From the IMG/VR virus record IMGVR_UViG_3300027714_002656, positions 1-24,112 of that record: a stretch of 24,112 nucleotides of DNA, one strand, 5' to 3'. Source of the DNA: a virus. Positions within the stretch are counted from its first letter, which is position 1; the number at the start of each line of letters is the position of its first letter. Below, piece by piece: positions 3,215 to 20,130 of this stretch. A program made the position numbers and the translations under genes. The notes below the pieces were generated by a model. It did not search any database. It saw only the letters and a list, made by a program, of their open reading frames with translations, and was not told the DNA's origin.

Positions 3215-3221
3215 TATATTG

Positions 3222-3250
3222 TTGACTTGTATATATTTATATAGTATAAT
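3222..3250 (+). promoter_or_regulatory. Sigma70-type early promoter
   Basis: TTGACT (3222-3227), exactly 17 bases, then a perfect TATAAT (3245-3250). The predicted start near 3257 lies about 19 bases before the first plus-strand gene. It is the best-looking promoter in the window and probably drives the long plus-strand operon that begins here. Confidence 0.8.
3234..3241 (-). promoter_or_regulatory. T4-late-like promoter box (TATAAATA) on the minus strand
   Basis: The minus strand reads TATAAATA, identical to the T4 late promoter -10 consensus, about 20 bases before the ATG of the minus-strand operon. It lies inside the spacer of the plus-strand sigma70 promoter. A gp33 coactivator gene is present elsewhere in the window, so a gp33/gp55-type late system is plausible. 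In AT-rich DNA an 8-base match can also occur by chance. Confidence 0.45.
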
Positions 3251-3275
3251 AAACTATATTATGAAAGGATTAGAA

Positions 3276-3509
3276 ATGAAAAAAGTATGGAAACCAGTTT
3301 CAGATGCAAAGTATCATCAAATTTGTAATGAAAAAGATATTAATAAACAGAAAGAAATGATGAAGGACATTGTTTATAACTTTGTACATAAGGGACAACA
3401 AAGAAAGTTTCTTTATGATATAGATAAGCCTAGTTATACTAAGGCATTGGACTTAATGAAAATGATTACAAGTTTAAAATTGATTGTGGAAGGACATAGT
3501 GTAATATGA
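3276..3509 (+). CDS. Small unknown early protein
   Basis: 77 residues from the ATG at 3276. This start is chosen because AAAGGA lies about 9 bases upstream and the promoter at 3222-3250 places the transcript start near 3257. The frame is open further upstream, but those codons would not be transcribed from that promoter. The protein is lysine-rich and probably helical, with no cysteine cluster or signal peptide; the last part (SYTKALDLMKMITSLKLIV) could form an amphipathic helix. As the first gene behind a strong early promoter it could act on the host early in infection, but I do not recognise it. The stop overlaps the start of the next gene. Confidence 0.7.
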   Translation: MKKVWKPVSDAKYHQICNEKDINKQKEMMKDIVYNFVHKGQQRKFLYDIDKPSYTKALDLMKMITSLKLIVEGHSVI

Positions 3510-3961
3510 TGAAAAAGAAAAGAAAATTAACAGAAGAGCAAAAAGAACAACGTAGAGAATTATTGGCTAAAGCAAGAGAAAGTAAAGCACCGCCAAAGTA
3601 TGTAACGGTAGCTCCTACTGTTAGAGAATTACCAGATGATCATGGACTTAGTTTGAAAAAAGTTAGAGGATGGATTAAGAATAATAAAGATGAGCGTAAT
3701 CGTCTTAAAAAAATATTAAGAAGAAATTTTGATAACCAAGTTAATAGAAGATTCCAAATAGTAGATACTTATGTACAAAATATGGAAGCGTATGTTCGTA
3801 GTGGTGTTTGGTTAGATTTATTTTATGGTGAAAACCAAGAAAATAAAATAGGGTTTAGATGTAAGATTATGGCTTATGATGAAGATGGTAATCCTAAAAG
3901 AACAGAAGGTGTTTGGTATGACGATATAGGATGTGTATATAAATCTAAAGAGTGGGCGTAA
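3506..3961 (+). CDS. Conserved hypothetical protein with basic N-terminal helix
   Basis: 151 residues. Residues 1-30 are almost all K, E, R and Q (KKKRKLTEEQKEQRRELLAK), predicting a long charged helix. A LPDDHGLSLKKVRGWIK segment follows at about 42-58. The C-terminal third is beta-like and aspartate-rich, ending ...YKSKEWA. The TEEQ-rich start plus the LPxDHxLSLKxVxxWI segment matches, from memory, hypothetical proteins common in T4-like cyanophages, with no assigned function. ATGATG at 3506 overlaps the upstream TGA, and the gene ends in TAATG shared with the next gene, so it is embedded in a coupled operon. Nucleic-acid binding through the basic helix is possible but only inferred. Confidence 0.75.
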   Translation: MMKKKRKLTEEQKEQRRELLAKARESKAPPKYVTVAPTVRELPDDHGLSLKKVRGWIKNNKDERNRLKKILRRNFDNQVNRRFQIVDTYVQNMEAYVRSGVWLDLFYGENQENKIGFRCKIMAYDEDGNPKRTEGVWYDDIGCVYKSKEWA

Positions 3962-4413
3962 TGATTCAATACACAATGGAAGAATTTAAAACTTATGTAG
4001 GTAAATCTACAGGGACTAGCCCTTGGATTCAAGTTAGCCAACAAAGAATAAATCAGTTTGCTAAAGCTACAGAAGATTATCAATGGATTCATGTAGATGA
4101 AGAAAAGGCACAAAAAAGTATTTTTGGTTCTACTATAGCTCATGGTTTTCTAACTTTAGCTTTAGCTCCTTGGATGAGTTATAATGCTTATGAAGTAAAA
4201 AATATTTCTCATGTAGTTGTTCGTGGGTTTGGGAGAATTAGATTTAAAGAACCTGTTAAATCTGGAGACTATTTACGAGGCAATTTTAAGTTGTTAAGTA
4301 TTACTCCTATTAAGTCTGGTGGCTATAGAGTTAAACAATCACTAATGATTGCCATCCAGGGTAAACAAAAACTGGCATGTGTGGCAGAAATTATAAGTAT
4401 TATTTATGAATAG
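3961..4413 (+). CDS. MaoC-like hot-dog fold hydratase (enoyl-CoA hydratase 2 type)
   Basis: 150 residues from the ATG that overlaps the previous stop (TAATG). A GTG 9 bases upstream is a less likely start. The protein matches the single-domain MaoC/R-specific enoyl-CoA hydratase family in length and motifs. The hydratase signature D-x4-H is present (D39, H44 in EDYQWIHVDEEKA), followed by GSTIAHGF at 56-63, which forms the hot-dog central helix, and then a typical beta-sheet half. In bacteria such enzymes hydrate trans-2-enoyl-CoA thioesters in fatty-acid breakdown or related acyl metabolism. Here it sits in an early operon, so it is a candidate auxiliary metabolic gene acquired from a bacterial host. 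Catalytic residues look intact. The real acyl substrate is unknown. Confidence 0.85.
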   Translation: MIQYTMEEFKTYVGKSTGTSPWIQVSQQRINQFAKATEDYQWIHVDEEKAQKSIFGSTIAHGFLTLALAPWMSYNAYEVKNISHVVVRGFGRIRFKEPVKSGDYLRGNFKLLSITPIKSGGYRVKQSLMIAIQGKQKLACVAEIISIIYE

Positions 4414-4423
4414 AAACAAGGTG

Positions 4424-4452
4424 TTGACTTGAGACTCGTTATATGGGATATT
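4424..4452 (+). promoter_or_regulatory. Sigma70-type promoter sharing sequence with the one at 17865
   Basis: TTGACT (4424-4429), 17 bases, GATATT (4447-4452). The expected start near 4459 is about 20 bases before the next ATG. The stretch GATATTAATAATATGA recurs exactly at the promoter at 17865-17893, with the same 17-base spacing. Confidence 0.6.
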
Positions 4453-4479
4453 AATAATATGAAAAGAGAGGAATATAAA

Positions 4480-4746
4480 ATGGGACATATGAAAAGTTGG
4501 TTAATGGAACACGACGAAGCTATTGGAGATGCAATTGAGAGAGGTGCTACTTCATTACAAGATGTGGTAACATACTGTAAGACTAATATGCAGATGATTA
4601 ATAAGAATTATATTACAGAACAGTGGAATGAGTTTATGGCTGATCCACGTGATATGGTTGATAGTATGACTAAATCTCAAATAGAAGATTTAGATAATTA
4701 TGCTCTATCTCAAGAACAAGAACATCTTATGGGTGGAGAAATATAA
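4480..4746 (+). CDS. Small unknown acidic protein
   Basis: 88 residues from the ATG at 4480, which has AGAGG 8 bases upstream. The frame also reads from a TTG at 4429, but that codon lies inside the promoter sequence and is unlikely to be used. The protein is predicted to be helical and acidic, rich in D, E, M and Q (for example MTKSQIEDLDNYALSQEQEH), and has a single cysteine. No domain is recognised. A promoter at 4424-4452 directly precedes it, so it starts a sub-operon, and it shares its stop (ATAATG) with the start of a tiny membrane-protein gene. Confidence 0.7.
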   Translation: MGHMKSWLMEHDEAIGDAIERGATSLQDVVTYCKTNMQMINKNYITEQWNEFMADPRDMVDSMTKSQIEDLDNYALSQEQEHLMGGEI

Positions 4747-4877
4747 TGAATTCATTGTTATGGTTAATTATAGGTATGTGTCTTATGGGTGTAATTATGG
4801 ACCCAGCATACCTTGGTGAAGTGTTTCATACAATTGGTGATCTAGCTGAACAGAGGCAACCTATTGAAATTAAATAA
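4746..4877 (+). CDS. Tiny single-pass membrane protein
   Basis: 43 residues, from ATG at 4746 (overlapping the upstream TAA as TAATG) to TAA at 4875-4877. Residues 3-18 are strongly hydrophobic (SLLWLIIGMCLMGVIM) and are followed by an acidic tail, which predicts one membrane segment or an uncleaved signal anchor. The end overlaps the start of the next gene by 14 bases. No family is recognised. The coupled start, tight packing and clear membrane segment favour a real gene, but its short length keeps confidence moderate. Confidence 0.55.
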   Translation: MNSLLWLIIGMCLMGVIMDPAYLGEVFHTIGDLAEQRQPIEIK

Positions 4878-5493
4878 AATTATATGTGCAATGATGCTCT
4901 GTTCTCCAGCATTTGCGGAGTCAGAGTGTGAATACATGGATATGACACACGTAAAGACAACTGGAAACATAGAGCAGACACGTAACTATGATCAAGAGAC
5001 TATTCATTATGCAGAAGAAAAACGTATTTGTGCAGTTAATTTTGACGTAAAAATAGGTAAAAACTGGGCAAAAACACAAGATTTTTACGTTTTTGGGCCA
5101 GAAATGAGTGAGAATGAGGCATGTAATAAAGCAAAAGATAAAGCTAAAATAAAAGCCTTAGAAAAACATGCTCCCCAAGTTGTTACTAATAATGTTAAGC
5201 AACAATGTAAAGAATCCATAGTACTTAACAAAATACCAGAAAAAAAATATGAACGTAATCCTGTAGCTAGTAGTTTGGCTTGCAATCTCTTAGCAATATT
5301 TTATTCAGGACCTGAAAGAAATTCTAGGTGTAGTCCTGTAAGAGAAGCAGCACATACAAAACTTGGAATGGAAAATCTTAGACCTGGTGTATGTAGACAA
5401 TATAAAAGAGAAGAAGTACGAGATGGTCGGGTATGGACTATAGGTGGAAAAGAATGTTTACAAAAAGACGGTACATGGTTTGCTGTTTTTTAA
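4864..5493 (+). CDS. Exported protein of unknown function with cysteines
   Basis: 209 residues with a TTG start. TTG is chosen because AGAGG lies 7 bases upstream and because it completes a normal signal peptide: basic MKLNK, hydrophobic IICAMMLC, then SPAFA before ESE. The mature protein carries seven cysteines (C22, C52, C102, C120, C144, C161, C182 by rough count from start to ECLQ near the end), consistent with disulfides in the periplasm. A lysine/alanine-rich helix near 100-115 (EACNKAKDKAKIKALEKHA) precedes a more beta-like C-terminal half. No family is recognised. It is the first of several genes here for exported proteins, which suggests that this part of the operon targets the host envelope. 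Confidence 0.75.
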   Translation: MKLNKIICAMMLCSPAFAESECEYMDMTHVKTTGNIEQTRNYDQETIHYAEEKRICAVNFDVKIGKNWAKTQDFYVFGPEMSENEACNKAKDKAKIKALEKHAPQVVTNNVKQQCKESIVLNKIPEKKYERNPVASSLACNLLAIFYSGPERNSRCSPVREAAHTKLGMENLRPGVCRQYKREEVRDGRVWTIGGKECLQKDGTWFAVF

Positions 5494-5500
5494 CTAAATA

Positions 5501-5522
5501 ATTGTTCCAGGGAGGGAACGAT
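5501..5522 (+). promoter_or_regulatory. Hairpin presenting the ribosome binding site in its loop
   Basis: ATTGTTCC (5501-5508) can pair with GGAACGAT (5515-5522), eight pairs with one G-T, around the six-base loop AGGGAG. The Shine-Dalgarno sequence GGGAGG lies in the loop and the first stem base. The ATG follows two bases after the stem. It may tune translation of the gene at 5524 or be a site for an endoribonuclease that cuts at GGAG, as RegB does in T4. Confidence 0.5.
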
Positions 5523-5523
5523 A

Positions 5524-5847
5524 ATGATAAAGATATTTGTAATCATGTTTGTAGTAATATTTGATTACACTAATGGAGCACAAAGATCTATAGAATTAGA
5601 ATTTGAAACTGTAGAGCAATGTTTTGAACATAAGAGAAAAGTGGATAAGGATCCAACACAATTATATTACGAAGGCAAGAGTATAGAAAATTTGGAATAC
5701 GGATGTGTAAGATATTTAAAAAATTATGTAGAAGAGTGTGAAATCTTACCAATGGATTATGAAACTAAAAAAGCATGTATACCTTATTGGGATCACTGGG
5801 GTAATCATTCAAGAGGTGAAAGTGGTACCTATACAAATGAGGAGTAA
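5524..5847 (+). CDS. Small probably exported two-cysteine protein
   Basis: 107 residues. The N-terminus (MIKIFVIMFVVIFDY) is very hydrophobic, followed by a short extended region and an EQC motif with C33, then C61 and further cysteines near 72 and 85. It shares this architecture with the proteins at 7581 and 17642: a hydrophobic strand at the very N-terminus, an (E/Q)xC motif at residue 33-35 and a second cysteine 25-37 residues later. The tail is acidic and polar. The strong Shine-Dalgarno GGGAGG lies in a hairpin loop. No known family is recognised. Export with a disulfide is plausible, but the hydrophobic segment could instead be a core beta strand. Confidence 0.7.
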   Translation: MIKIFVIMFVVIFDYTNGAQRSIELEFETVEQCFEHKRKVDKDPTQLYYEGKSIENLEYGCVRYLKNYVEECEILPMDYETKKACIPYWDHWGNHSRGESGTYTNEE

Positions 5848-5850
5848 ATA

Positions 5851-6177
5851 ATGTTAATAATATTTGGAGTGTTGATGGCTATGACAATATTGTTTAGTGA
5901 ACCAGCACAATCAGATGAACACTATATTACTATTAAATGTGATAAAAGTGTTGACCGAGGTGTAATAATAATGGATAGTACACCTATAATGAATTGTAAG
6001 GACATGAAATTTATTAATATGTTTGTTGGATCAGGTTTAGAAGTAGGACCTATATCCAATCTTAATAGGTTTGATGAAAATATTATAGAGGCAGTAGAAA
6101 GATTAGAAGTGCTGAGTAGTAAAACTTTACAAGTTAAAAATAGAAAGGATGTAGCTTTTAAAGAGTTACAACATTAA
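5851..6177 (+). CDS. Small exported protein of unknown function
   Basis: 108 residues. The start MLIIFGVLMAMTILFSEPAQSDE resembles a signal peptide, with cleavage likely after SEPAQS or nearby, although no basic residue precedes the hydrophobic stretch. Two cysteines follow (C30 and C49 in IKCDKS and MNCKDM), possibly one disulfide. The C-terminal half is helical and charged (ENIIEAVERLEVLSSK). Only three bases separate it from the previous gene and two bases from the lipoprotein gene after it, so all three are probably made together. No homologous family is recognised. Confidence 0.7.
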   Translation: MLIIFGVLMAMTILFSEPAQSDEHYITIKCDKSVDRGVIIMDSTPIMNCKDMKFINMFVGSGLEVGPISNLNRFDENIIEAVERLEVLSSKTLQVKNRKDVAFKELQH

Positions 6178-6179
6178 AT

Positions 6180-6836
6180 ATGAAAAATATTATATTATGT
6201 TTAAGTATAGTGAGTATATTAGGAGCTTGTTCGTCTCTAAAAATAGAAGATAATAAGGCTGCTAATGAGTGTCTTAAAAAAGGAACATGGGTAGAAGCTG
6301 ATCCGTGTTTAAAGCTGGTTAAAAAAACAGCTGGTGGTATACCACAATGGATGAAAAAGGTACCGCAAAAAGAGAATGCATATTATAGTGCTGGTACAGC
6401 AATTAGTTCTGACTTGCAACTATCAATAGATAAATCAACTCTTAATGCAAAGAGAACCCTTGCAGATAGAATTAATGGCGAAATGTCAGCACAAATAAAG
6501 ACTTTTATGATAGAGTCTGGAGAAGGTGCTGGTACATTATCAACTGATATAGAACAAGTAACAAAGAATGTTATAGCTAAAGTAAATGTAGCTGGATACA
6601 ATGTATCTGAAGTTGAGATAGCACCTCAAGGATCTTTCTATAGGACATACGTCTTAATAGAATATCCTGTAGGCCAAGCTAATGACATACTAGTAGAACA
6701 AGTTAGAAAGAATAACTTATTGTATGCTAAAATTAGAGCATCTGAGTCATTTAAAGAACTAGAGGAGTCTGTGGATGAGAAAATTAGATCAGACCAAGAA
6801 AGAATTGAAGCAATCACCGAATCTGTGGGAGGATAA
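6180..6836 (+). CDS. LPP20-like outer-membrane-type lipoprotein
   Basis: 218 residues with a type II signal peptide: MKNIILCLSIVSILGAC, lipobox LGAC with the lipidated cysteine at C17. The mature part begins SSLKIEDN, with no Asp at +2, so outer-membrane sorting is expected. From residue 55 the sequence PQWMKKVPQKENAYYSAGTA leads into a helix (SDLQLSIDKSTLNAKRTLADRI), the typical opening of the LPP20/FlgP-like lipoprotein domain in which a P.W......YYS.G.A motif precedes a helix of repeated A/K/L. The C-terminal 50 residues form a charged helix. Such lipoproteins are unusual in phages. Possible jobs are superinfection exclusion or envelope remodelling, both inferred. Assignment to LPP20 is by motif memory. 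Confidence 0.75.
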   Translation: MKNIILCLSIVSILGACSSLKIEDNKAANECLKKGTWVEADPCLKLVKKTAGGIPQWMKKVPQKENAYYSAGTAISSDLQLSIDKSTLNAKRTLADRINGEMSAQIKTFMIESGEGAGTLSTDIEQVTKNVIAKVNVAGYNVSEVEIAPQGSFYRTYVLIEYPVGQANDILVEQVRKNNLLYAKIRASESFKELEESVDEKIRSDQERIEAITESVGG

Positions 6837-6840
6837 TTCT

Positions 6841-6972
6841 ATGGAAGAGATGAATGCTTTAAAAAGGCTAGATGCAGCGCATAATGCGTATAAGCTAGCA
6901 GAAGAGGGTTGGGGTAAAAATTATTGGGCAGAAGTTATTGCTCGCCTTAACAATAAACGTAAATTATCATAG
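6841..6972 (+). CDS. Tiny helical protein of unknown function
   Basis: 43 residues from the ATG at 6841, which has GGAGG 8 bases upstream (inside the end of the lipoprotein gene). The frame is open further upstream but without a comparable ribosome binding site. The sequence is an A/E/K-rich helix (MEEMNALKRLDAAHNAYKLA) followed by WGKNYWAEVIARLNNKRK. There are no cysteines or membrane segment. The strong Shine-Dalgarno sequence is the main support that it is translated. Confidence 0.55.
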   Translation: MEEMNALKRLDAAHNAYKLAEEGWGKNYWAEVIARLNNKRKLS

Positions 6973-6989
6973 CTATGAGGAGTATTATT

Positions 6990-7247
6990 ATGATAGGATT
7001 AAAAACTAAAATCCTGAACACTTTGAAATCAGGTAAAGCAGTAAGTGGCAAACAATTTGCCTCAAGACACAATGTAGCAGAAACAACTGTTGCAGCAAGA
7101 GTTAGTGAACTACGTAGAGATGGCTTTGCAATCTACTACAATAAAAAAACTGACTCACAAGGACGTAAAGCATCATTCTATAAACTAGGTGCAGCTAGAC
7201 GTTCAATAGTAGCAGCAGGTTATGCTGCTCTAGGAGTAGCTGGCTAA
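6990..7247 (+). CDS. Small winged-helix DNA-binding protein
   Basis: 85 residues. The start at 6990 is chosen because GAGGAG lies about 8 bases upstream; the ATG at 6975 overlaps that signal. Residues 1-45 read as a helix-turn-helix: helix ILNTLKSG, then SGKQFASRHNV, then the probable recognition helix AETTVAARVSELRRDG (30-45). A beta wing follows (FAIYYNKKTDSQGRKASFYKLG). This matches small winged-helix regulators seen in T4-like marine phages. The alanine-rich tail is unusual. A terminator follows at 7276-7305, so this gene ends a transcription unit. It could be a transcription regulator of phage or host genes; its operator is not identifiable here. Confidence 0.75.
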   Translation: MIGLKTKILNTLKSGKAVSGKQFASRHNVAETTVAARVSELRRDGFAIYYNKKTDSQGRKASFYKLGAARRSIVAAGYAALGVAG

Positions 7248-7275
7248 ATAAAGAGCTATATACTTAACTAGTATT

Positions 7276-7305
7276 GCGGGTAGTTTCTGACTGCCCGCTT
7301 TCGTT
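7276..7305 (+). terminator. Intrinsic terminator after the winged-helix gene
   Basis: GCGGGTAGT (7276-7284) pairs with ACTGCCCGC (7290-7298), nine pairs with one T-G, around a five-base loop. TTTCGTT follows. The GC-rich stem stands out in AT-rich surroundings. The T-run is interrupted, so termination may be partial. Confidence 0.7.
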
Positions 7306-7326
7306 ATAATAATTATGAGGTTTAAA

Positions 7327-7578
7327 ATGGCAAATGAAGTAAGTAACCCAGATACTAATATGGATCTGGTTGATAAAAAAATGTTAAAACTAGCAGCTTT
7401 AATTGATACAACAATAAGATTCCATGTAGCAGACATGGTCTTTGATGAGATGGAAAATAATTATGTAGCTACATGGCTACGTAAAGAAAAAGATCCATTA
7501 TTAGTAACTATTTTAGCTACGCAAACAGGTGATCGTAATCCACAAGAAGAAGGAGCTAACGACACCACTGGGAGTTAA
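7327..7578 (+). CDS. Small acidic unknown protein
   Basis: 83 residues from the ATG at 7327, with GAGG about 8 bases upstream. An upstream in-frame ATG at 7315 overlaps that signal and is less likely. The protein is soluble: a helical N-terminal half (DLVDKKMLKLAALIDTTIRFHVADMVFDEMENNY), then a TWLRKEKDPLLVTILATQTGDRN segment and a polar tail. No cysteine or known motif is visible. It is the first gene after the terminator, so it is expressed either by read-through or from an unseen promoter in the 80-base gap. Confidence 0.65.
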   Translation: MANEVSNPDTNMDLVDKKMLKLAALIDTTIRFHVADMVFDEMENNYVATWLRKEKDPLLVTILATQTGDRNPQEEGANDTTGS

Positions 7579-7580
7579 AA

Positions 7581-7937
7581 ATGCAGACCGTATTTCAAGT
7601 CGCGTTTATAGTAATGTGCTGGCAAGGGGATTGTACTAGGTTCGAAAGCGTACCTTATGCAATAAATAGCAGTCCCCAGCACTGTGAGAAGATGTTAAGA
7701 TGGATGTTTACAAATTCTGTAGGTCCTTATTATGATGATAAGATAGATTTTGATAATAGCAGTCCTGAAGATATGATTATAGATGATGCAGGATGTGAAC
7801 CTACTGAAAGAGAACCTCAAGACGGTGATGAGTGGCGTATTGAGAGACAATGGGATTCACCTAAGAATGAGAAGTTCCTACAAGATCAAAACGATCTACA
7901 ATGGCAACAAGAGCAGGAACACAATATAGATGATTAA
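7581..7937 (+). CDS. Small two-cysteine-family protein with acidic tail
   Basis: 118 residues; GGGAG lies about 9 bases before the ATG. It begins with a hydrophobic strand (MQTVFQVAFIVMCW) and has a QHC motif with C35 and a later C72, the architecture also seen in the proteins at 5524 and 17642; two extra cysteines lie at 13 and 18. The last 45 residues are very acidic and glutamine-rich (EREPQDGDEW, QDQNDLQWQQEQEH), unlike the two relatives. Function is unknown. The gene ends eight bases inside the next one. Confidence 0.65.
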   Translation: MQTVFQVAFIVMCWQGDCTRFESVPYAINSSPQHCEKMLRWMFTNSVGPYYDDKIDFDNSSPEDMIIDDAGCEPTEREPQDGDEWRIERQWDSPKNEKFLQDQNDLQWQQEQEHNIDD

Positions 7938-8163
7938 TCCATTAATAAATTCAATGGGAGAACTTAAATTTAGACTCCCAAAGATCTTTGTTTACTTTAT
8001 CTTTATATGGTTTAGAAAAATAGTAAACCGTGGACATTATCAAGAAGAGATAAAAGAAGCATTAGATAAACAAGTTCTTGATTATGCATTGGAACAACTA
8101 AAAGTTCCAAGTGGTTTTCATCCTGATCTAGAAAGAATGAGAAATTTCAAACTTAAACAATGA
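7930..8163 (+). CDS. Small protein with hydrophobic N-terminal segment
   Basis: 77 residues. It starts at the ATG overlapping the end of the previous gene; an alternative in-frame ATG at 7954 has no better signal. Residues 17-33 (PKIFVYFIFIWFRKIV) are hydrophobic and aromatic and flanked by basic residues, suggesting a membrane-associated helix. The rest is charged and helical (HYQEEIKEALDKQVLDYALEQLK). No family is recognised. Its stop TGA at 8161-8163 overlaps an ATG (ATGA), the usual coupled start in this genome, but that ATG reads into a stop after five codons, as described for the next gene. Confidence 0.6.
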   Translation: MINPLINSMGELKFRLPKIFVYFIFIWFRKIVNRGHYQEEIKEALDKQVLDYALEQLKVPSGFHPDLERMRNFKLKQ

Positions 8164-8263
8164 TATACAAAAGCTAGATTTTAAATTTGATATAGAGAAA
8201 CTAAATCAATCTTTAGATTGGATTTTAAAGCAAGCTGATATTGATAGAGTTAATCAGTTATGC

Positions 8264-8719
8264 TTGACACATGCTCCTTCTGCAGCAGCACACCCAGATG
8301 GTAAATGGTATCAAGGTGCTGGTTCTTTACATTGGCAATATAAAGCAGTAGGTAATGGTATTGAAAGAATGCAAAGAGACCCCGTGCTTGTTGAAGATCA
8401 ATTCAGCAATTTTATAGAAGAAGCAAAGCACACATATTTCTATGATGTTTATAAACATCTTCAAACACAATTTGATATAGGTAGAGTTAGAATCATTAAG
8501 ATACATTCTTGTCATTGTCTTACATGGCATCAAGATCTAGATAAACGTATTCATGTACCTATAGTAACTAATGAAGGTAACAGGCTTGTTATAGACGATA
8601 AGTGTTATCATTTACCAGGTGATGGTAGTGCTTACTATGTTAACACTATGAAGCCACATTCAGCATTTAATGGAGGTACAGAACATAGATACAATCTATT
8701 ATGTACAGTTAGAAATTGA
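8264..8719 (+). CDS. Asp-hydroxylase-like Fe(II)/2OG oxygenase; 5' end uncertain, possible frameshift
   Basis: The first standard start in this frame is a TTG at 8264 (151 residues), but the frame is open back to 8141 and the extra residues look genuine (KLDFKFDIEKLNQSLDWILK). The natural coupled ATG at 8160 is out of frame by two bases. Removing one TA from the TATA at 8164-8167 would give a start MIQKLDFKFD in frame, so either the N-terminus is frameshifted or a rare ATT/ATA start is used. The enzyme core is intact: H89-x-D91 in TWHQDLDKRIHVPI, distal H132 in PHSAFNGG and R142 (counted from the TTG). This is the Asp/Asn beta-hydroxylase type with substrate unknown. It is immediately followed by three radical SAM genes. 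Confidence 0.75.
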   Translation: MTHAPSAAAHPDGKWYQGAGSLHWQYKAVGNGIERMQRDPVLVEDQFSNFIEEAKHTYFYDVYKHLQTQFDIGRVRIIKIHSCHCLTWHQDLDKRIHVPIVTNEGNRLVIDDKCYHLPGDGSAYYVNTMKPHSAFNGGTEHRYNLLCTVRN

Positions 8720-10044
8720 GTATAGATAAAGACCCAGCATTTTGTGTACATCCATGGACTAATCTCATGGTTAATAATCCTGGCACATATAACTTCTGTT
8801 GTATAGCTTGGAAAGCATTAATTACTGATGAGAAAGGTAATCCTGTACTTGCTGCTAACACTATGCCTGATGAAGCATGGAATGCTCCTAGCTTACGTAA
8901 GGTTAGAAAGGCTATGGTTAACGGTGAAAAATTAGATGCATGTAGTAAATGTTGGACGCAAGAAGATGTAGGTAAAGATAGTTATAGACAAAGACACAAT
9001 AGAGAGTGGATAGGAAGACTAGGACTTAAAGAAATAGAAAAAAGAGTTCAGTACACAAAAGATAATGACTATTATTTAAACACACCACCTGATTATTTAG
9101 ACCTTAGATTAGGTAACTTATGTAATCTTAAATGTAGAATGTGTAATGTATATAATAGTAGCCAGATAGAAAAAGAACATCTACAATTAAAAACCAATAA
9201 TATGTATGCTGATATGTGGGGTCGCCAATGGGATGGTGATATTAATGGTCCACCATATCCTATGGATTGGGTAGACGCTCCTAAGTTTTGGGAGAAGATG
9301 AGTGATTTTATACCTGGGTTAAAAAAAGTTTACTTTACAGGTGGTGAACCTACATTACTACCATCTACATATACGTTTATGCAAGAGATGGTTGATAAAG
9401 ATATGTCTAGTAAGATAGATTTATTGTATAACATTAATTGTACTAATGTAACAGATAGGTTTGTAGAGTTAGCAAGTAAGTTTAGACATGTACAGATACA
9501 AGCTAGTATAGACGGTACAGAAAATGTTAATGATTATATACGAGCTCCTTCTAAGTGGGCAACAATAAAAAAGAATTTAATTAAAGTAGCAGAAGCGCCA
9601 GGCCTTAAAGTTGGACTATCTCCAGCTATACAATCTTATAATATTTTAGATATAGATAATATACTAGAGTTTGCACAAGATGTTAGTAGAAACCATTCCA
9701 AAATAAATCCACCTTATAGACCAGGTGAGTCTGTTATAGATGTAGATTTCTTATTTGTTATACATCCAACATACTTTGATCCATTAAACTTACCAGAGTA
9801 TGTAAGAGATATGGCTTTTGTTAAGTTGCAGAAGTGGCAAGGGTCATGGATATATGAAAACTCTGGCGTAACAAGAAATTCTATAGACTCTTACTTAACA
9901 CATTTGGAGTCTAAAAGAAATCCTAAGTGGGAAACCAACATGAAAGAGTTTTGGGAGATGACTAGAATATTTGATAAGAGTCGTAAGCAATCATTTAAAG
10001 ATAGCTTACCAGAACTTTATGGAATGTTAAATGGAACGAAGTAA
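8716..10044 (+). CDS. Twitch-domain radical SAM protein (first of three)
   Basis: 442 residues, TTG start overlapping the previous TGA; a later start would delete C10. The radical SAM 4Fe-4S motif CxxxCxxC is at C136, C140 and C143 (GNLCNLKCRMC), followed by the SAM-binding TGGEP near residue 211. An additional cysteine cluster precedes it: C10 in FCVHPW, C28 and C29, then C76 and C79, as in proteins with an N-terminal twitch/SPASM-like domain that binds an auxiliary cluster. It should therefore cleave S-adenosylmethionine to start radical chemistry on a substrate held near a second cluster. The substrate is not known; the family includes peptide- and sugar-modifying enzymes. It overlaps the next radical SAM gene by 14 bases. 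Confidence 0.85.
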   Translation: MSIDKDPAFCVHPWTNLMVNNPGTYNFCCIAWKALITDEKGNPVLAANTMPDEAWNAPSLRKVRKAMVNGEKLDACSKCWTQEDVGKDSYRQRHNREWIGRLGLKEIEKRVQYTKDNDYYLNTPPDYLDLRLGNLCNLKCRMCNVYNSSQIEKEHLQLKTNNMYADMWGRQWDGDINGPPYPMDWVDAPKFWEKMSDFIPGLKKVYFTGGEPTLLPSTYTFMQEMVDKDMSSKIDLLYNINCTNVTDRFVELASKFRHVQIQASIDGTENVNDYIRAPSKWATIKKNLIKVAEAPGLKVGLSPAIQSYNILDIDNILEFAQDVSRNHSKINPPYRPGESVIDVDFLFVIHPTYFDPLNLPEYVRDMAFVKLQKWQGSWIYENSGVTRNSIDSYLTHLESKRNPKWETNMKEFWEMTRIFDKSRKQSFKDSLPELYGMLNGTK

Positions 10045-11413
10045 GACCTTTTGTATTAAACCATGGATGCATATAGCAACTTATACTACTGGTGAAGCTC
10101 TTATGTGTTGTGTTGCTAAGAAGACAGCTGGTAACCTTAATAGAAATACATTAGAAGAAATATGGAATAGTGATCACTATAAGCAAGCAAGATTAGATAT
10201 GCTTGCAGGTAGAGAAAATGCTGCCTGCGTTAAGTGTTATTCGGAGGAGAAAGCGGGTATAAACTCTCATAGAGTGGTAGAGAACCATATTTGGGAGCTT
10301 AGTACACCATCAGCCATTCAGCCTTCTGTAGGTAAAGAATTCATAGATAATTTAATATCTAAGACTGATAGTGAAGGTTACTTAGATAGTAAACCAATTA
10401 CGTTTGATTTTAGATTAGGCAATACCTGTAACTTACAATGTGTAATGTGCGGACCAAAGGACAGTAGTAAATGGGTAAACTTTGGACATAGTATAGGTGA
10501 AGGTAAAGATCCAAAGCTATGGGATACGTCACCCTTTAATTGGGTTGAAGATCAATCTTTTTGGGACAACCAATTTTTACCATTGTTATCTAATGTTAAA
10601 CATATGATAATAGCTGGTGGTGAACCTTTACTACTTAAACAACATACCAGATTGTTAGAAAGATGTATAGCAGAAGGATATAGTAAAAATATAACTATAA
10701 GATACCATACTAATGGTACTGTTATGCCTCCACATTTATTTAAACTATGGGAACAGTTTAAGCATATTGATCTTTGTATATCTATGGATAGTTGGGGTGC
10801 AAAAAACGATTACATTAGATACCCTGGTATGTGGAATGACATAGTACAGAATATTAAAAATTTAGAAGACTCAGCTGATAATATTATTCCTAGAATTATA
10901 TCAACTGTAAATGCTTATAATGTATTTTATATGCCAGACTTTGCTAACTGGTTATTAGAACAAAACTTTAAAAAATTATGTAAGTTTAAATCCTCTGGTG
11001 CTGGTTTATTTACTATTGCCTATGTGCATGGACCAGTACATATGAACTGTAAGGTATTTCCACAATCTATAAAAGAAAAAATAACTAAAAAATATGATGA
11101 CTGGTATACAGAAATGAAAAAATCTAGGAGTATGTTTATTAGTAAAGCTTCAGATTTTGATATAACATCCGTGCATGATTTAATACCAAGAGGATTAATG
11201 ATAGATGTAAGGACTGCTGAGCAACATAGAATAGCAAAAGCATCTAAAAGAATAGATGACATATATTCAATTAAAGATTTTATGAATAGTCAAGATTTAT
11301 CCAAACACTTTCCTAAATTGATAGATTACACACATAAGATAGATACAGCTAGACATACAGATTTTACAAAAGTATTTCCTGAACTTAGTCAGTTAGTCAA
11401 TGAAAAAGATTAA
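10031..11413 (+). CDS. Twitch-domain radical SAM protein (second of three)
   Basis: 460 residues. Its domain order equals that of the preceding gene: N-terminal cysteines C8 (FCIKPW), C26 and C27, C66 and C69 (CVKC), then the radical SAM motif at C133, C137 and C140 (GNTCNLQCVMC) and AGGEPLLL near residue 196. The two proteins are clearly paralogues that have diverged in their C-terminal halves, so they may act on different positions of one substrate or form a heteromer. The predicted reaction is radical chemistry from S-adenosylmethionine with an auxiliary Fe-S cluster in the twitch domain. Overlaps of 14 bases at both ends suggest strictly coordinated synthesis of all three radical SAM proteins. 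Confidence 0.85.
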   Translation: MERSKTFCIKPWMHIATYTTGEALMCCVAKKTAGNLNRNTLEEIWNSDHYKQARLDMLAGRENAACVKCYSEEKAGINSHRVVENHIWELSTPSAIQPSVGKEFIDNLISKTDSEGYLDSKPITFDFRLGNTCNLQCVMCGPKDSSKWVNFGHSIGEGKDPKLWDTSPFNWVEDQSFWDNQFLPLLSNVKHMIIAGGEPLLLKQHTRLLERCIAEGYSKNITIRYHTNGTVMPPHLFKLWEQFKHIDLCISMDSWGAKNDYIRYPGMWNDIVQNIKNLEDSADNIIPRIISTVNAYNVFYMPDFANWLLEQNFKKLCKFKSSGAGLFTIAYVHGPVHMNCKVFPQSIKEKITKKYDDWYTEMKKSRSMFISKASDFDITSVHDLIPRGLMIDVRTAEQHRIAKASKRIDDIYSIKDFMNSQDLSKHFPKLIDYTHKIDTARHTDFTKVFPELSQLVNEKD

Positions 11414-12365
11414 AGTAGAGAATTATAATATGATTTTGTGGACTGTTAATGATTACTGTCCATTTAAATGTTGGTACTGTCCTGAGACTACATGGGGTGG
11501 ATCTAAAGATACTTATAGTTGGGAAACTACAGATAAGTTTTTAGATAAATTATTTGATCATTTTGGTAAAGGTTATGTTGAGATGTCTGGTGGTGAGCCA
11601 ACACAGTGGCCACATATACACAAAGTTGCAAGAAAATTTAAAGACAATCCTAATTGGAGTTTAGGTTTAATATCTAATCTAGGAAAATCTGTTGACTTCT
11701 ATGAGGATTTAGGGGTTAATAACATAACAGCAAGTTATCATCCCAATGTAATTGATACGGATATAAAAAGAAAGATATGGTTTGATAAAGTTTATAAATT
11801 AAAAGATCATGTGTTAATGAGTATAGCATTAATGATGGATCCAAAACACTTCGAACATTGTATAGATGTTTTAGACTGTTTATATTATCCAGGATTATCA
11901 AACTCAAAAATTAACATACAAACAACAAGAATAAATGATGTAGAAAATATGAAATATCAAATTGGTTATACAGAAAAACAAGAAGAGATGTGGAAAAATT
12001 TACCATTAGGTAAGATGGGATTAGATTCTATTACAAATGGGTTTATGGATGATGTTAAAGTAACTATAGATGACACAGAGGTACATAAAGGTGCAATGGA
12101 GTTTCATGGATGGATAAGAGATACTTTAAATAAGGGTAATAATAATTTTAAAGGGTGGTTATGTGACACTGGTAAAACAGGTATACACATTGCTCCCAAT
12201 GGTAATATTTACAAAGGTGTATGCCATGTGGCATATGATATGCACAGTAGCATAGGTAATATAAATAAACCAGAAGAAATACAGTGGGCAGATAAAGCTA
12301 TGGTGTGTCCATATGATATGTGCTTCTGTGGTTTTGATTTAGCAGTTAACAAAAAGAGGATTTAA
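11400..12365 (+). CDS. Radical SAM protein with C-terminal cysteine cluster (third of three)
   Basis: 321 residues, shorter and different from the first two. The CxxxCxxC motif lies near the N-terminus (C20, C24, C27 in YCPFKCWYC), followed by SGGEPTQWP at 64-72. There is no N-terminal twitch region. Instead the C-terminus has a SPASM-like region: WLCDTG, then IHIAPNGNIYKGVCH, and finally VCPYDMCFCGFDLAVNKK, giving about five cysteines that could hold an auxiliary cluster. Proteins of this form often modify peptides or organise radical chemistry on large substrates. The substrate is unknown. Glutaredoxin follows after a single base. Confidence 0.85.
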   Translation: MKKIKVENYNMILWTVNDYCPFKCWYCPETTWGGSKDTYSWETTDKFLDKLFDHFGKGYVEMSGGEPTQWPHIHKVARKFKDNPNWSLGLISNLGKSVDFYEDLGVNNITASYHPNVIDTDIKRKIWFDKVYKLKDHVLMSIALMMDPKHFEHCIDVLDCLYYPGLSNSKINIQTTRINDVENMKYQIGYTEKQEEMWKNLPLGKMGLDSITNGFMDDVKVTIDDTEVHKGAMEFHGWIRDTLNKGNNNFKGWLCDTGKTGIHIAPNGNIYKGVCHVAYDMHSSIGNINKPEEIQWADKAMVCPYDMCFCGFDLAVNKKRI

Positions 12366-12611
12366 ATGTACACTATATATACTAGAGCACTTTGTAATTA
12401 TTGTGATATGGCAAAGGCTGAAATGAAAAGATTAAATATTGAGTTTAAAGAAGTAAAACAAACTGATGCTTCTAAACAAAAATTAGTAGAAGTACTTAAT
12501 AAGAAACAATATACATACCCACAAATTTGGGATGATAAACATCACATAGGTGGATATACTGACTTATTAGACTACACAGAAGAAATGACTTCGACAGGAT
12601 TAGCAATGTAA
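12366..12611 (+). CDS. Glutaredoxin
   Basis: 81 residues, full length for a classic small glutaredoxin. The dithiol active site CNYC is at C10 and C13 after the first strand (MYTIYTRA), TYPQIW holds the cis-proline near residue 56, and IGGYTDL (62-68) is the glutathione-binding turn. It reduces disulfides using glutathione and, in T4-like phages, usually serves ribonucleotide reductase. Here no reductase gene is in view. It directly follows three radical SAM genes and may instead maintain their thiols or assist Fe-S handling; that role is inferred from position only. A dithiol CxxC site is less typical of the dedicated Fe-S glutaredoxins, which have a CGFS-type site. Confidence 0.88.
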   Translation: MYTIYTRALCNYCDMAKAEMKRLNIEFKEVKQTDASKQKLVEVLNKKQYTYPQIWDDKHHIGGYTDLLDYTEEMTSTGLAM

Positions 12612-12628
12612 TATTATGGAGATATATT

Positions 12629-13645
12629 ATGAGTTTGACTATATTAGATACTAAAAAATACAGTAGAAAAAAAGATACTAAGAAAGATCTTTCTGAACCA
12701 GAAATTAATGAAATTGATAGAAAGGCTATGGGTGGTACAGAGCTTATGAAGTTTGCTCTACACGAAAGGCTAGATGATGACCTTCTTAGTAAATTTCAAA
12801 TTATACCATCACGAGTAAGAGATATAGATCCTGATCGTATTCCAATATTATGGAACCATGATCTTGCTGGTGATCCAGAGACTGAACATCTTAAAAATAT
12901 TAAAGCAGAAGATTTAAAGTTTAAAAAATTAGTATTTGTTAGTCATTGGCAACTCCAACAATTTAAAAATTACTTAAATATACCCTATAGTAAAAGTACG
13001 GTATTACAAAACGCTATTGAGCCTATAGCAGAACATAAGAAGCCTGATGATGTAATCAATATAGTTTACCATACAACTCCACATAGAGGGTTAGAACTTC
13101 TTGTTCCTGTATTTGAACACTTGGCTAAAACCCAATTTCAAGATTTAAAAAAGAAAGTACATCTTCATATATACTCAGATTTTAATATCTATGGGTGGCC
13201 AGAAAGAAATAAACCTTACATAGAGTTATTTGATAGATGTAGAAATCATCCAGACATAACATATAACCATTCTGTATCAAATGAACAGATGAAGAAAGAA
13301 TTAGAGAAGATGCACATCTTCGCGTACCCGTCTATTTGGGCTGAGACATCATGTATAGCGCTCATAGAGGCTATGTCAGCAGGATTACTATGTGTTCATA
13401 GTGCATATGCTGCTCTGCCTGAAACAGCAGCTAATTGGACCATGATGTACTCTATGTCAGAGAGTCATGTAGAGCATTGTAATAGGTTTGCTGAACAGTT
13501 ACTTAGTGCTGTTACAGTAGTAGATCAGCAATTTATGCAAGACAGACTAAACATGCAACAAAGATACGTTAATGGTTTTTATAGTTGGGATACAAGAGCT
13601 ATGCAATGGGAAGCTATGTTGAAAGGATTATTAAATAATGGTTAG
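12629..13645 (+). CDS. GT-B glycosyltransferase (GT4-like)
   Basis: 338 residues; the ATG is preceded by TGGAG. The layout is that of retaining GT-B enzymes. A GG loop occurs early (MGGTE, 34-38), then VFVSHWQ..F (102-112), LQNAIEP (126-132), and in the C-terminal domain FAYPSIWAETSCIALIEAMSAG (231-252) with the E-x7-E nucleotide-sugar motif at E239 and E247, followed by LLCVHSAYAALPE. It should transfer a sugar from a nucleotide donor to an acceptor that cannot be inferred. The linker domain is short and there is no membrane segment, so it acts in the cytoplasm. It lies within the radical SAM/oxygenase cassette and may glycosylate the same product. Confidence 0.85.
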   Translation: MSLTILDTKKYSRKKDTKKDLSEPEINEIDRKAMGGTELMKFALHERLDDDLLSKFQIIPSRVRDIDPDRIPILWNHDLAGDPETEHLKNIKAEDLKFKKLVFVSHWQLQQFKNYLNIPYSKSTVLQNAIEPIAEHKKPDDVINIVYHTTPHRGLELLVPVFEHLAKTQFQDLKKKVHLHIYSDFNIYGWPERNKPYIELFDRCRNHPDITYNHSVSNEQMKKELEKMHIFAYPSIWAETSCIALIEAMSAGLLCVHSAYAALPETAANWTMMYSMSESHVEHCNRFAEQLLSAVTVVDQQFMQDRLNMQQRYVNGFYSWDTRAMQWEAMLKGLLNNG

Positions 13646-13871
13646 TACAGTTGAATGGGCAACCAAAGAAAAAGAATTAAAACAAACTTCAAGACTACAA
13701 ATTAATTTACAATCTTGGGAAGAGGGTGACATACTTCACTTCTATCAAGATATGGTAGTCTTGTTTCAAGAACTTCAGAGTGATCATATATCTTTGACTA
13801 ATAAAAATAGAAGGATTATTGAAAATGGCTATACCTCATTTGACAAAATATTCAACAGAACAAAATCCTGA
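13638..13871 (+). CDS. Small unknown protein in the radical SAM cassette
   Basis: 77 residues, ATG eight bases inside the glycosyltransferase gene. The sequence is mostly helical and polar (STVEWATKEKELKQTSRLQINLQSWEEGD, then ILHFYQDMVVLFQELQSDH). It has no cysteine, signal peptide or known motif. Its 3' end overlaps the next gene by 47 bases. Being small and next to radical SAM genes, it was considered as a peptide substrate, but it lacks a leader-core layout and core residues such as repeated C, T or W. I leave it as unknown. Confidence 0.6.
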   Translation: MVSTVEWATKEKELKQTSRLQINLQSWEEGDILHFYQDMVVLFQELQSDHISLTNKNRRIIENGYTSFDKIFNRTKS

Positions 13872-14466
13872 AGTTGAATTAGTTGAATACACTGAGGAAT
13901 ATAAACCTGAATTATTAATCTTTTGTAATAAATGTAGAGAGTTGGGATTTACATTAAACCAATCTCTTAAAGCTATGAAGTTAAGAAGTCCAAGTGTAAA
14001 ATTTTGGTTAGTATTTGTCAATGGTGAGATAGCATCTGTAAGTGGCTGTCAAAAATTACGTCCTAGTGATGCAGATAGTATCATAGAAGAAGGTGATTAT
14101 AGATTATTGTTTAGGACAGCTACACTACCGGAATATTATCATCATTTAAAGTTTAATAGATATATGGGACACAACTTATACGTTAAACATTTAATCTTAC
14201 CTCAAAGAGCATGGGCATACTCCCAAGGTGCAAAAAGAGTATTGTTAACAGCTGTTACTACGCCACAAGGTAGTCCACAGATGGATAAGGTAGCAAGAGT
14301 AACAAGATTAAACGAGGTTAAGTATTGTAAGAAAAGAGGTATACCTCCTATATGGGAAGAACTAGGTACGTGTAAATTATTTAACACAGACCAAGTAGTG
14401 TTTAAAGTTATAGAAAAAAATTCAGCATGGTGGATTAAGAAAGGTAAATTTAATGAAAATAATTGA
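13825..14466 (+). CDS. Unknown protein, possibly GNAT-like acyltransferase
   Basis: 213 residues from the ATG at 13825, with AAGGA about 10 bases upstream; a TTG two codons earlier is possible. The middle of the protein (KFWLVFVNGEIASVSGCQKL, then YRLLFRTATLPEYY) has the strand-turn-strand pattern and later strands (KRVLLTAVTTP, about 137-147) seen in GNAT-fold acetyltransferases, but the acetyl-CoA Q/RxxGxG/A loop is not evident. The GNAT suggestion is therefore weak. No signal peptide is present. It overlaps the next gene, a prolyl-4-hydroxylase-like oxygenase, by 14 bases, and belongs to the same cassette. Confidence 0.65.
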   Translation: MAIPHLTKYSTEQNPEVELVEYTEEYKPELLIFCNKCRELGFTLNQSLKAMKLRSPSVKFWLVFVNGEIASVSGCQKLRPSDADSIIEEGDYRLLFRTATLPEYYHHLKFNRYMGHNLYVKHLILPQRAWAYSQGAKRVLLTAVTTPQGSPQMDKVARVTRLNEVKYCKKRGIPPIWEELGTCKLFNTDQVVFKVIEKNSAWWIKKGKFNENN

Positions 14467-15148
14467 TAATTTTATGCCAATGGATAGAGTGCATAAAATA
14501 TATAACTATTTGTCTTCTCGTGAATGGGATTTTATTTCAGAATTAAAATCACCAACTGTTAAGTTTCAAAATAGATCTTTGAAACATGCTGGTCGTTCAA
14601 CAAACGATTACTTTCCAATATTCAGATTTCCATTACGTCATGTGGAAGACTTTCTATTTAAAATTAAAGAGCTTTATCCGGATTATATAATATATGATGA
14701 TTTTGTAGGTGGGTTGAATATGCCAAAAGATTTTTCTCATGTTAAACATTATGATTTTTTTGAAGATAAACATATACCCAATAAAGACGACTTAATTAGA
14801 TTTCAATTCTATTGTGTACCAGAATGGAAACCAGAGTGGGGTGGCAACACAGAATTTTATGGACGCTGGAGAAATGAAAAAATAGAACCTGATGTATGTG
14901 AGATAAAACCTAATCGTTTAGTACAATTTGATTGGGACGAATTTCACACTGGAACACCATGGGATAATAACCAAGGTGTACAGCGTATGATGTTAACTGG
15001 GTATCTTTTTAAGAAGGATGCTGACTATGCTGCAAAGAAAACATATAGATATGTCTTTGGTCGCTCAAAACCATATGTAGAATTGTATCCTGAGGAAAAA
15101 GAATGGACAGCTAACTGTCCTGTTTTAGAATCTTATCCTTGGAACTGA
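14453..15148 (+). CDS. Prolyl-4-hydroxylase-like Fe(II)/2OG oxygenase
   Basis: 231 residues. The double-stranded beta-helix core is easy to follow: H99-x-D101 in VKHYDFFED, then RFQFYCVPEWKPEWGGNTEFYG (116-137), NRLVQFDWDEFHTGTPW with the distal H165, and the 2OG-binding R178 in QRMMLTGYLF. The full metal triad and arginine are present. Phages and marine bacteria carry many such proteins; prolyl-4-hydroxylase relatives hydroxylate proline, but other peptides, nucleobases or sugars are possible substrates. It is the last plus-strand gene of this cassette and ends in a 16-base convergent overlap with the exonuclease gene on the other strand. Confidence 0.82.
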   Translation: MKIIDNFMPMDRVHKIYNYLSSREWDFISELKSPTVKFQNRSLKHAGRSTNDYFPIFRFPLRHVEDFLFKIKELYPDYIIYDDFVGGLNMPKDFSHVKHYDFFEDKHIPNKDDLIRFQFYCVPEWKPEWGGNTEFYGRWRNEKIEPDVCEIKPNRLVQFDWDEFHTGTPWDNNQGVQRMMLTGYLFKKDADYAAKKTYRYVFGRSKPYVELYPEEKEWTANCPVLESYPWN

Positions 15149-19588: not shown

Positions 19589-19819
19589 ATGAGCTATTCA
19601 CCAGAGGAAATAGATAAATTTAGGGGATTTAGAATGTGGTCACATGAATGCGAAATAGAACATACTAATTGGCAAGTTGAAGACAAACAACCATGCAATT
19701 GGTGTGGACTATACGAACAACAATATATGCAACTTAAAAAGAAAAAAATAATGGAAGTGAAAGAGGAATTTTTACAGGAGATACATGCTCCTGATCTTCC
19801 TCATCTCAAGGAGGGCTAA
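19589..19819 (+). CDS. Small protein with possible zinc-binding cysteines
   Basis: 76 residues; GGGAGAAG and TGGA precede the ATG. It contains a HECEIEH segment at about 19-25 and PCNWCG (C36, C39), so C21 or the histidines plus CxxC could bind zinc. The second half is a lysine/glutamate-rich helix (MQLKKKKIMEVKEEFLQEI). The stop overlaps the ATG of the Fe-S carrier gene, so the two are coupled. Function is unknown; a link to Fe-S or metal handling is only suggested by position. Confidence 0.6.
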   Translation: MSYSPEEIDKFRGFRMWSHECEIEHTNWQVEDKQPCNWCGLYEQQYMQLKKKKIMEVKEEFLQEIHAPDLPHLKEG

Positions 19820-20130
19820 TGTTAACACTAACACCATCAGCTAAAGAATACTTAGGTACAGTTAAACCTCAAGACCAATTTATAACACTATCAGTAGATG
19901 GTGGAGGATGTGCTGGGTTTCAATATAAATGGGCTACAACAGATACAGTAGAAGTAGATAAATCATGGGGCGACCCAATAGAAAATATTTTACTTGTTGA
20001 CCCAATTGCAGAAATGTATATAATAGGAAGTGTAGTTGATTATAAAAAAGAGTTAGGTGGTTCTTATCTAACTGTAAAAAATCCAGGCGCAACAAGCAGC
20101 TGTGGATGTGGAGAAAGTTTTGGTGTATGA
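19819..20130 (+). CDS. A-type iron-sulfur carrier protein (IscA/HesB/ErpA family)
   Basis: 103 residues, full length for the family. The three cluster-ligand cysteines are present with canonical spacing: C31 in DGGGCAGFQYKW, then 63 residues, then C95 and C97 in SSCGCGESF. The opening LTLTPSAKEYL also fits the family. A-type carriers accept Fe-S clusters from the assembly scaffold and pass them to target enzymes. Three radical SAM enzymes lie in the same window and are plausible clients, although the host's proteins could be the target. T4-like marine phages are known to carry such carriers. The stop overlaps the next start as ATGA. Confidence 0.92.
   Translation: MLTLTPSAKEYLGTVKPQDQFITLSVDGGGCAGFQYKWATTDTVEVDKSWGDPIENILLVDPIAEMYIIGSVVDYKKELGGSYLTVKNPGATSSCGCGESFGV

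Follow-up and report, generated by a model that had tools for sequence, protein, structure and literature searches.

Cassettes of radical SAM (rSAM) genes are already on record for marine T4-like phages, and the locus described here probably belongs with them and with the phage auxiliary-gene islands that have a probable envelope role. In pelagimyophages, which are marine T4-like phages, rSAM cassettes are gained and lost between close phages in a host-recognition cluster, which also carries glycosyltransferases and was interpreted as LPS-modifying, with the exclusion of rivals proposed as the purpose of the glycosyltransferases (PMC7029224). The T4-like marine viral genome TARA_ERS488813_N000010, which we liken to our locus by its description, possesses 12 rSAM genes, a glutaredoxin and an A-type Fe-S carrier (PMC5332604), and its rSAM genes were interpreted as genes of Fe-S metabolism (PMC5332604). 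So far, rSAM genes have been counted among the miscellaneous auxiliary genes of marine T4-like phages.

The window analysed here, a stretch of 24,112 bases that is the entire virus record, is placed among the T4-like phages from its gp32, RNase H and dexA genes; the nearest relatives of its gp32 (51-60%) are cyanophages, marine single-cell viruses and a Sinorhizobium phage, and when the whole window was compared as DNA with the phage collection, no match appeared. It differs from the described systems in several respects. Two of its rSAM proteins, rSAM1 and rSAM2, match nearly the whole model of the family NF033640, which carries no function, but here they represent two separate old subfamilies in a fixed pair, and the adjoining rSAM3 is not a member. 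A conserved pair or trio of this kind, or a link to Bdellovibrionota, was not found for the pelagimyophage cassettes in the available part of that report (PMC7029224). Orthologues of rSAM1 and rSAM2 lie inside a GDP-heptose-type polysaccharide locus of the Bdellovibrionota genome G783 (L286), whereas genes for heptose precursors were not recognised on the phage contig. In literature largely outside subscription journals we found neither the fixed rSAM1-rSAM2(-rSAM3) unit, nor its Bdellovibrionota orthologues, nor its placement beside heptose or GT2 genes, and nothing relevant tying these rSAM families to O-antigen, Bdellovibrio or sulfotransferase.

From the comparisons below we propose, with a probability of roughly 0.55, that the rSAM genes, an old unit open to transfer, may encode enzymes acting on a surface glycan or on the sugar precursor of one. 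A bolder version, which we put forward only tentatively, would see in the trio a radical pathway of three enzymes, not described before and directed at a surface sugar, exchanged by gene transfer between phages and Bdellovibrionota and rewriting the host envelope during infection.

Genes of the island

The nine consecutive plus-strand open reading frames that an earlier note on this DNA had described are present, while the start of the interval, put at 8141, has to be given up, as there is no start codon at that position. These genes, and two on the opposite strand that are discussed below, are the following.

1542-2237, minus strand: AspH2, aspartyl/asparaginyl hydroxylase-like 2OG oxygenase (PF05118, 6.9e-12)
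2234-3214, minus strand: O2234, conserved protein, N-terminal partner of AspH2
8264-8719, plus strand: AspH, small 2OG oxygenase, its frame open upstream to about 8135 (PF05118, 1.3e-6)
8716-10044, plus strand: rSAM1, N-twitch radical SAM enzyme with a TTG start (NF033640, 351 bits)
10031-11413, plus strand: rSAM2, N-twitch/SPASM radical SAM enzyme (NF033640, 374 bits; PF13186, 5.4e-10)
11400-12365, plus strand: rSAM3, short radical SAM enzyme with a C-terminal FKGWxC..5-Cys domain (PF04055, 7.1e-9)
12366-12611, plus strand: Grx, glutaredoxin with CNYC (PF00462, 1.1e-9), backbone and not island-specific
12629-13645, plus strand: GT, GT-B (GT4-type) glycosyltransferase, backbone (phrog_2170, 2.8e-47; PF00534, 1.3e-12)
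13638-13871, plus strand: conserved 77-aa protein, specific to this phage clade and found in all close relatives
13819-14466, plus strand: predicted GNAT-fold acyltransferase, swappable accessory (AlphaFold pLDDT 69.7)
14453-15148, plus strand: P4H, P4H-like 2OG-Fe(II) oxygenase, swappable accessory (PF13640, 6.8e-8)

The motifs named in the note were recovered. All three rSAM proteins match PF04055 in the Pfam search, and a residue check found in each of them both GGEP and the CxxxCxxC motif, which reads CNLKCRMC in rSAM1 (C136/140/143), CNLQCVMC in rSAM2 (C133/137/140) and CPFKCWYC in rSAM3. The 14-base overlaps joining the three genes lie at 10031-10044 and 11400-11413, and the metal ligands of both oxygenases are complete (H130xD132...H173, with R183, in AspH; H99xD101...H165 in P4H). 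The CNYC motif of the glutaredoxin is seen and agrees with its PF00462 match, the GT-B assignment with the match of GT to PF00534, and the C-terminal cysteines of rSAM3 are five in number (255, 275, 303, 308 and 310).

On score, with a curated cut-off of 170 bits, and on cysteine pattern rSAM1 and rSAM2 both belong to NF033640 (N_Twi_rSAM of NCBIfam), and an auxiliary cluster is predicted for them. The extra N-terminal cysteines ascribed to them are indeed present, at 10, 28, 29, 76 and 79 in rSAM1 and at 8, 26, 27, 66 and 69 in rSAM2, and all five are invariant in each protein across 13 phage sequences. Their description as paralogues needs a correction, because the two are only 24-28% identical and fall into separate old clades. 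Profile scans selecting N-terminal patterns returned the close clade only. In one close relative (L003, 2369-2482) rSAM2 is split into two frames.

The third enzyme had no match to NF033640 and stays below the cut-off of the SPASM model (13.5 of 27 bits) despite its C-terminal cysteine-rich domain. Its layout, a C-terminal FKGWxC..G..C..C..C.C, is shared by bacterial genes adjoining NF033640 genes. In L239 (10081-12107) two rSAM3-like bacterial genes have the cysteine-rich auxiliary domain at the N-terminus and not at the C-terminus, which is a domain permutation. A tblastn search of isolated phages gave no match for rSAM3, and none for the GNAT-like protein.

The frame of AspH has no in-frame ATG, the ATG at 8160 being shifted against it by a single base. 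Relatives do have an in-frame ATG (L001 at the corresponding site), so the window has probably either undergone a change of one base near 8160 or an unusual start. Against L001 the genes have dN/dS of 0.09-0.35, which means purifying selection, so the observation is not due to chance.

The protein at 13819-14466, unnamed in the earlier note, has a GNAT acyltransferase fold according to its AlphaFold model: a Foldseek comparison with the PDB gave 168 matches at E<=1e-3, led by GNAT/acyltransferase structures. The true start of this gene is probably at about 13870. For the 77-aa protein before it (13638-13871) there were zero family hits in Pfam, NCBIfam and PHROG, and the AlphaFold model of O2234 was unusable (pLDDT 57). 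PHROG would name P4H a DNA endonuclease V (phrog_274); since Pfam has it as a 2OG oxygenase, we took that name for a labelling problem and did not use it.

The radical SAM unit in phages and Bdellovibrionota

A scan with rSAM2 led to a distinct phage lineage, L274-L279 (contigs of 28-87 kb), where an rSAM1-like and an rSAM2-like gene are followed by one gene and then by an rSAM3-like gene, the last two positions being covered by the five contigs long enough; the pair is 37-41% identical to rSAM1 and rSAM2 of the window. When 79 NF033640-type proteins were placed in a maximum-likelihood tree, rSAM1 and rSAM2 fell into two parallel clades, each holding the clade of the window, L274/L276 and the Bdellovibrionota loci L095/L096/L238, with support of 94/74 to 98/91 on the relevant rSAM1 branches and 98/87 for rSAM2. 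On this tree we rejected a recent duplication of rSAM1 and rSAM2, and at L095, L096 and L238 the two orthologues are neighbours.

A profile of rSAM1, searched against 192 Bdellovibrionota genomes, separated four of them (412-717 bits) from the next score (305) by a clear gap, and the rSAM2 orthologue adjoins rSAM1 in all four, two of which (G006 and G798) were in the search alignments and two (G783 and G864) were not. G864 has rSAM1, rSAM2 and rSAM3 in the order of the window, its rSAM3 being split into two frames. An rSAM3-like gene is found near NF033640 genes at 12 of 20 Bdellovibrionota loci against none of 20 control loci, though rSAM3 orthology across lineages is weak, at 22-28% identity. 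Tree and adjacency show that rSAM1-rSAM2(-rSAM3) is an old unit common to a second phage lineage and Bdellovibrionota. The view of the trio as a joint set thereby holds good, in the form of a pair that recurs in both, usually with rSAM3.

NF033640 occurs in 55 of the 192 Bdellovibrionota genomes, in 2 of 398 Pseudomonadota and in 1 of 289 Verrucomicrobiota genomes, the latter three being exactly those used as entry points. On the bacterial chromosome at L096 (6662-16444) several NF033640-type genes stand in a row, and this genome holds 16 of them. The 13.5-kb contig L099, which was placed in a Neisseriaceae bin, carries 11 tRNA genes together with rSAM and GT genes of phage-like type (1-12667) and is probably a misbinned phage; it encodes two NF033640 proteins, an rSAM3-like protein and an AspH2-like domain. 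Comparison gave no support for a counterpart of O2234 within its fusion protein, and a likeness by eye between the N-terminal part of that fusion and the window protein at 760-1542 was unsupported by BLASTP or hhalign.

Backbone, enzyme core and swappable tail

Co-occurrence was tested independently with GT as the probe, which gave 80 GT contigs, 12 of them close (about 74% identity or more) and 68 more distant. An NF033640-type rSAM is present in all 11 of the 12 close contigs that cover the upstream side and in none of the 68 distant ones. As the close contigs are related, this compares clades with one another and should not be read as 79 independent events. Three of the distant contigs are 54-81 kb long and have zero NF033640 matches. 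Since the glutaredoxin adjoins GT in 57 of these 68 NF033640-free contigs, and lies beside or near it in the isolated phages DLP_6, phiM12, Cr30 and RHph_I1_18 too, Grx and GT are backbone genes of this T4-like group, beside which the island is built. The relative of GT in phage Cr30 is located in a heptose gene cluster. A 103-aa protein with a C-terminal SCGCG motif, resembling by eye an A-type Fe-S carrier, is encoded at 19819-20130 (plus strand) and occurs in all 14 contigs covering its region; in the NF033640-free phages L031, L053 and L058 it stands just upstream of Grx-GT instead.

The succession AspH-rSAM1-rSAM2, with AspH as the first core gene, is kept in every close relative covering the region (L001, L009, L020, L023, L026). 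The window type has its rSAM3, for which L009 and L020/L025 have a 34% relative and which is missing in L023 and L026, and a fourth rSAM gene (rSAM4) is found in L009 and L023. O2234 and AspH2 correspond to the two halves of a single 539-aa fusion gene located within the rSAM island of L020, L021, L023 and L025 (36-39% identity between O2234 and the N-terminal half), and the island of L026 has a free-standing O2234 copy; therefore the island reaches beyond the interval of the earlier note. By synteny, the stable core consists of AspH, rSAM1 and rSAM2, usually of rSAM3, with O2234/AspH2 nearby.

Downstream of GT there are two alternative tails, either GNAT and P4H, to which TauD is added in L009 and L025, or a fatty-acid desaturase with an AspH-like gene and another GNAT, as in L020, L021, L023, L024 and L026, from all of which P4H is absent (family names are based on Pfam for L020, L021 and L009). 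This tail of acyltransferase and oxygenase genes is swappable. The desaturase genes lie at 7595-8302 in L020, 3373-4080 and 4749-5483 in L021, 11198-11905 in L023 and 6424-7146 in L026; those at L020 7595 and L021 4749 match PF00487 and the remaining ones were named by likeness. They adjoin AspH-like and GNAT genes and stand in for the GNAT and P4H of the window in sister phages.

The interval is thus made of three layers, a backbone, a conserved enzyme core and a swappable tail. It was proposed earlier that the nine genes form one pathway; because Grx and GT occur without NF033640-type rSAM genes, and P4H and GNAT are replaced in sister phages, they are not one inherited pathway. Of the expected co-occurrence, the part concerning Grx and GT falls away, and the part concerning the rSAM trio, which recurs as a unit, remains. 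It might be argued further that there is no joint pathway at all, and that unrelated auxiliary genes have gathered singly at an opportunistic hotspot bounded by the small-ORF region and dexA, as the turnover of rSAM3, rSAM4, TauD and the desaturase module among close relatives and the independence of Grx and GT would suggest. We consider this unlikely, because the adjacency of rSAM1 and rSAM2 is kept in two phage lineages and in Bdellovibrionota, with congruent trees, and O2234 and AspH2 are fused within the island of four relatives.

Possible substrate and role

As the homologous rSAM units sit beside surface-sugar genes, a role in surface glycans is probable. Four mutually independent contexts speak for it. 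The pair in G783 lies among genes that match a heptose kinase, a nucleotidyltransferase of the 6-deoxy-heptose pathway and a UDP-galactopyranose mutase, and among GT2-like genes, with matches to a sugar-nucleotide epimerase (286 bits) and a GDP-heptose 3-epimerase (119 bits) also nearby. At L095 and L238 two GT2 genes are directly upstream of the rSAM1-rSAM2 pair, and the L274 group has sulfotransferase, FkbM methyltransferase and aminotransferase genes in the vicinity. The Vibrio phage K566 has four NF033640-type genes intermingled with a pair of GT8 genes, and LpxC (1.3e-40) and a gene annotated as PagP are close by; in K566 and L274 the naming of genes depends in part on weak Pfam hits (sulfotransferase, 6e-5). 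Among 138 neighbours at 20 Bdellovibrionota loci there are 27 further Radical_SAM and 9 GT2 genes, whereas 136 control genes, judged by their 25 most frequent families, include no more than one of each; since a high NF033640 score decided which loci were taken, some subfamilies are over-represented.

The families of glycan genes vary from locus to locus, and the trio of G864 adjoins metal-efflux-like genes, with zero glycan genes seen there. Phages that lack this rSAM family also have the GT of the window and the glycosyltransferases encoded at 20106-22339, and the glycan-type genes of the window are therefore not bound to that family. An envelope-modification island should have glycan-active genes linked to its enzymes, and such genes are seen in the GT of the window and, at homologous units elsewhere, in GT2, heptose, sulfotransferase, FkbM and LpxC genes. 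The earlier note had left the substrate open between peptide, protein and glycan; the neighbourhoods favour a glycan, and a peptide or protein less so.

If the unit does act on a surface glycan, it would be logical to suggest that rSAM1 and rSAM2 are an obligate couple, sequential enzymes or partners, acting on the same molecule, and that rSAM3 performs a later or alternative step. The radical chemistry could be an oxidation, epimerisation, dehydration or decarboxylation assisted by the auxiliary Fe-S clusters, and its target a sugar of a surface polysaccharide or a nucleotide- or lipid-linked precursor. The same product may be hydroxylated by the oxygenases and acylated by the GNAT protein, the sugar being transferred by the resident GT. 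Such a set would serve the remodelling of the host envelope, for example the exclusion of rival phages, or the decoration of the virion; we infer that a host surface glycan is the target rather than a virion glycan, and that the benefit would be the exclusion of rivals. A phage would then use radical chemistry to change the coat of its host, and phage genomes would be linked with predatory bacteria in which the NF033640 family is multi-copy. The fixed pair with orthologues in bacterial heptose/GT2 loci also offers a concrete substrate class and two co-expressible enzymes.

What SPASM/twitch enzymes are best known for is the modification of peptides, and this speaks against a glycan. One may accordingly imagine a RiPP or protein maturase system, where a small peptide or a protein of the virion would be modified by the rSAM enzymes, hydroxylated by the 2OG enzymes and capped by GT and GNAT. 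The PF13186 SPASM domain of rSAM2, SkfB as the best PDB match of the rSAM1/2 profile (7e-6), the weak similarity of rSAM1/2 to many NCBIfam peptide maturases, all far below cut-off, and the known action of PF05118 hydroxylases on proteins and peptides agree with it. The other PDB matches, however, are a nucleotide-sugar decarboxylase, the bacterial neighbourhoods are rich in GT2 genes, and the domain of rSAM1 and rSAM2 is N-terminal. Besides, the cassette genes abut or overlap and leave no room for a precursor except in two conserved ORFs of 77 aa, neither of which is rich in Cys or has a leader/core pattern; the overlapping gene set has zero precursor-like ORFs. For these reasons maturation of a peptide or protein appears doubtful to us, and modification of a surface glycan is preferred.

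Hypermodification of phage DNA against restriction by the enzymes and GT, which the location among DNA-replication genes and the general ability of phage glycosyltransferases and 2OG oxygenases to modify DNA might suggest, is very improbable, given that family searches, and inspection by eye for the rest, recognised no nucleotide hydroxymethylase or thymidylate-synthase-like gene in the window and that the same rSAM unit resides on bacterial chromosomes inside glycan loci.

Elsewhere in the window, the gene at 3952-4413 (plus strand) encodes a MaoC-like dehydratase (PF01575, 5.9e-23), an unusual metabolic gene for a phage.
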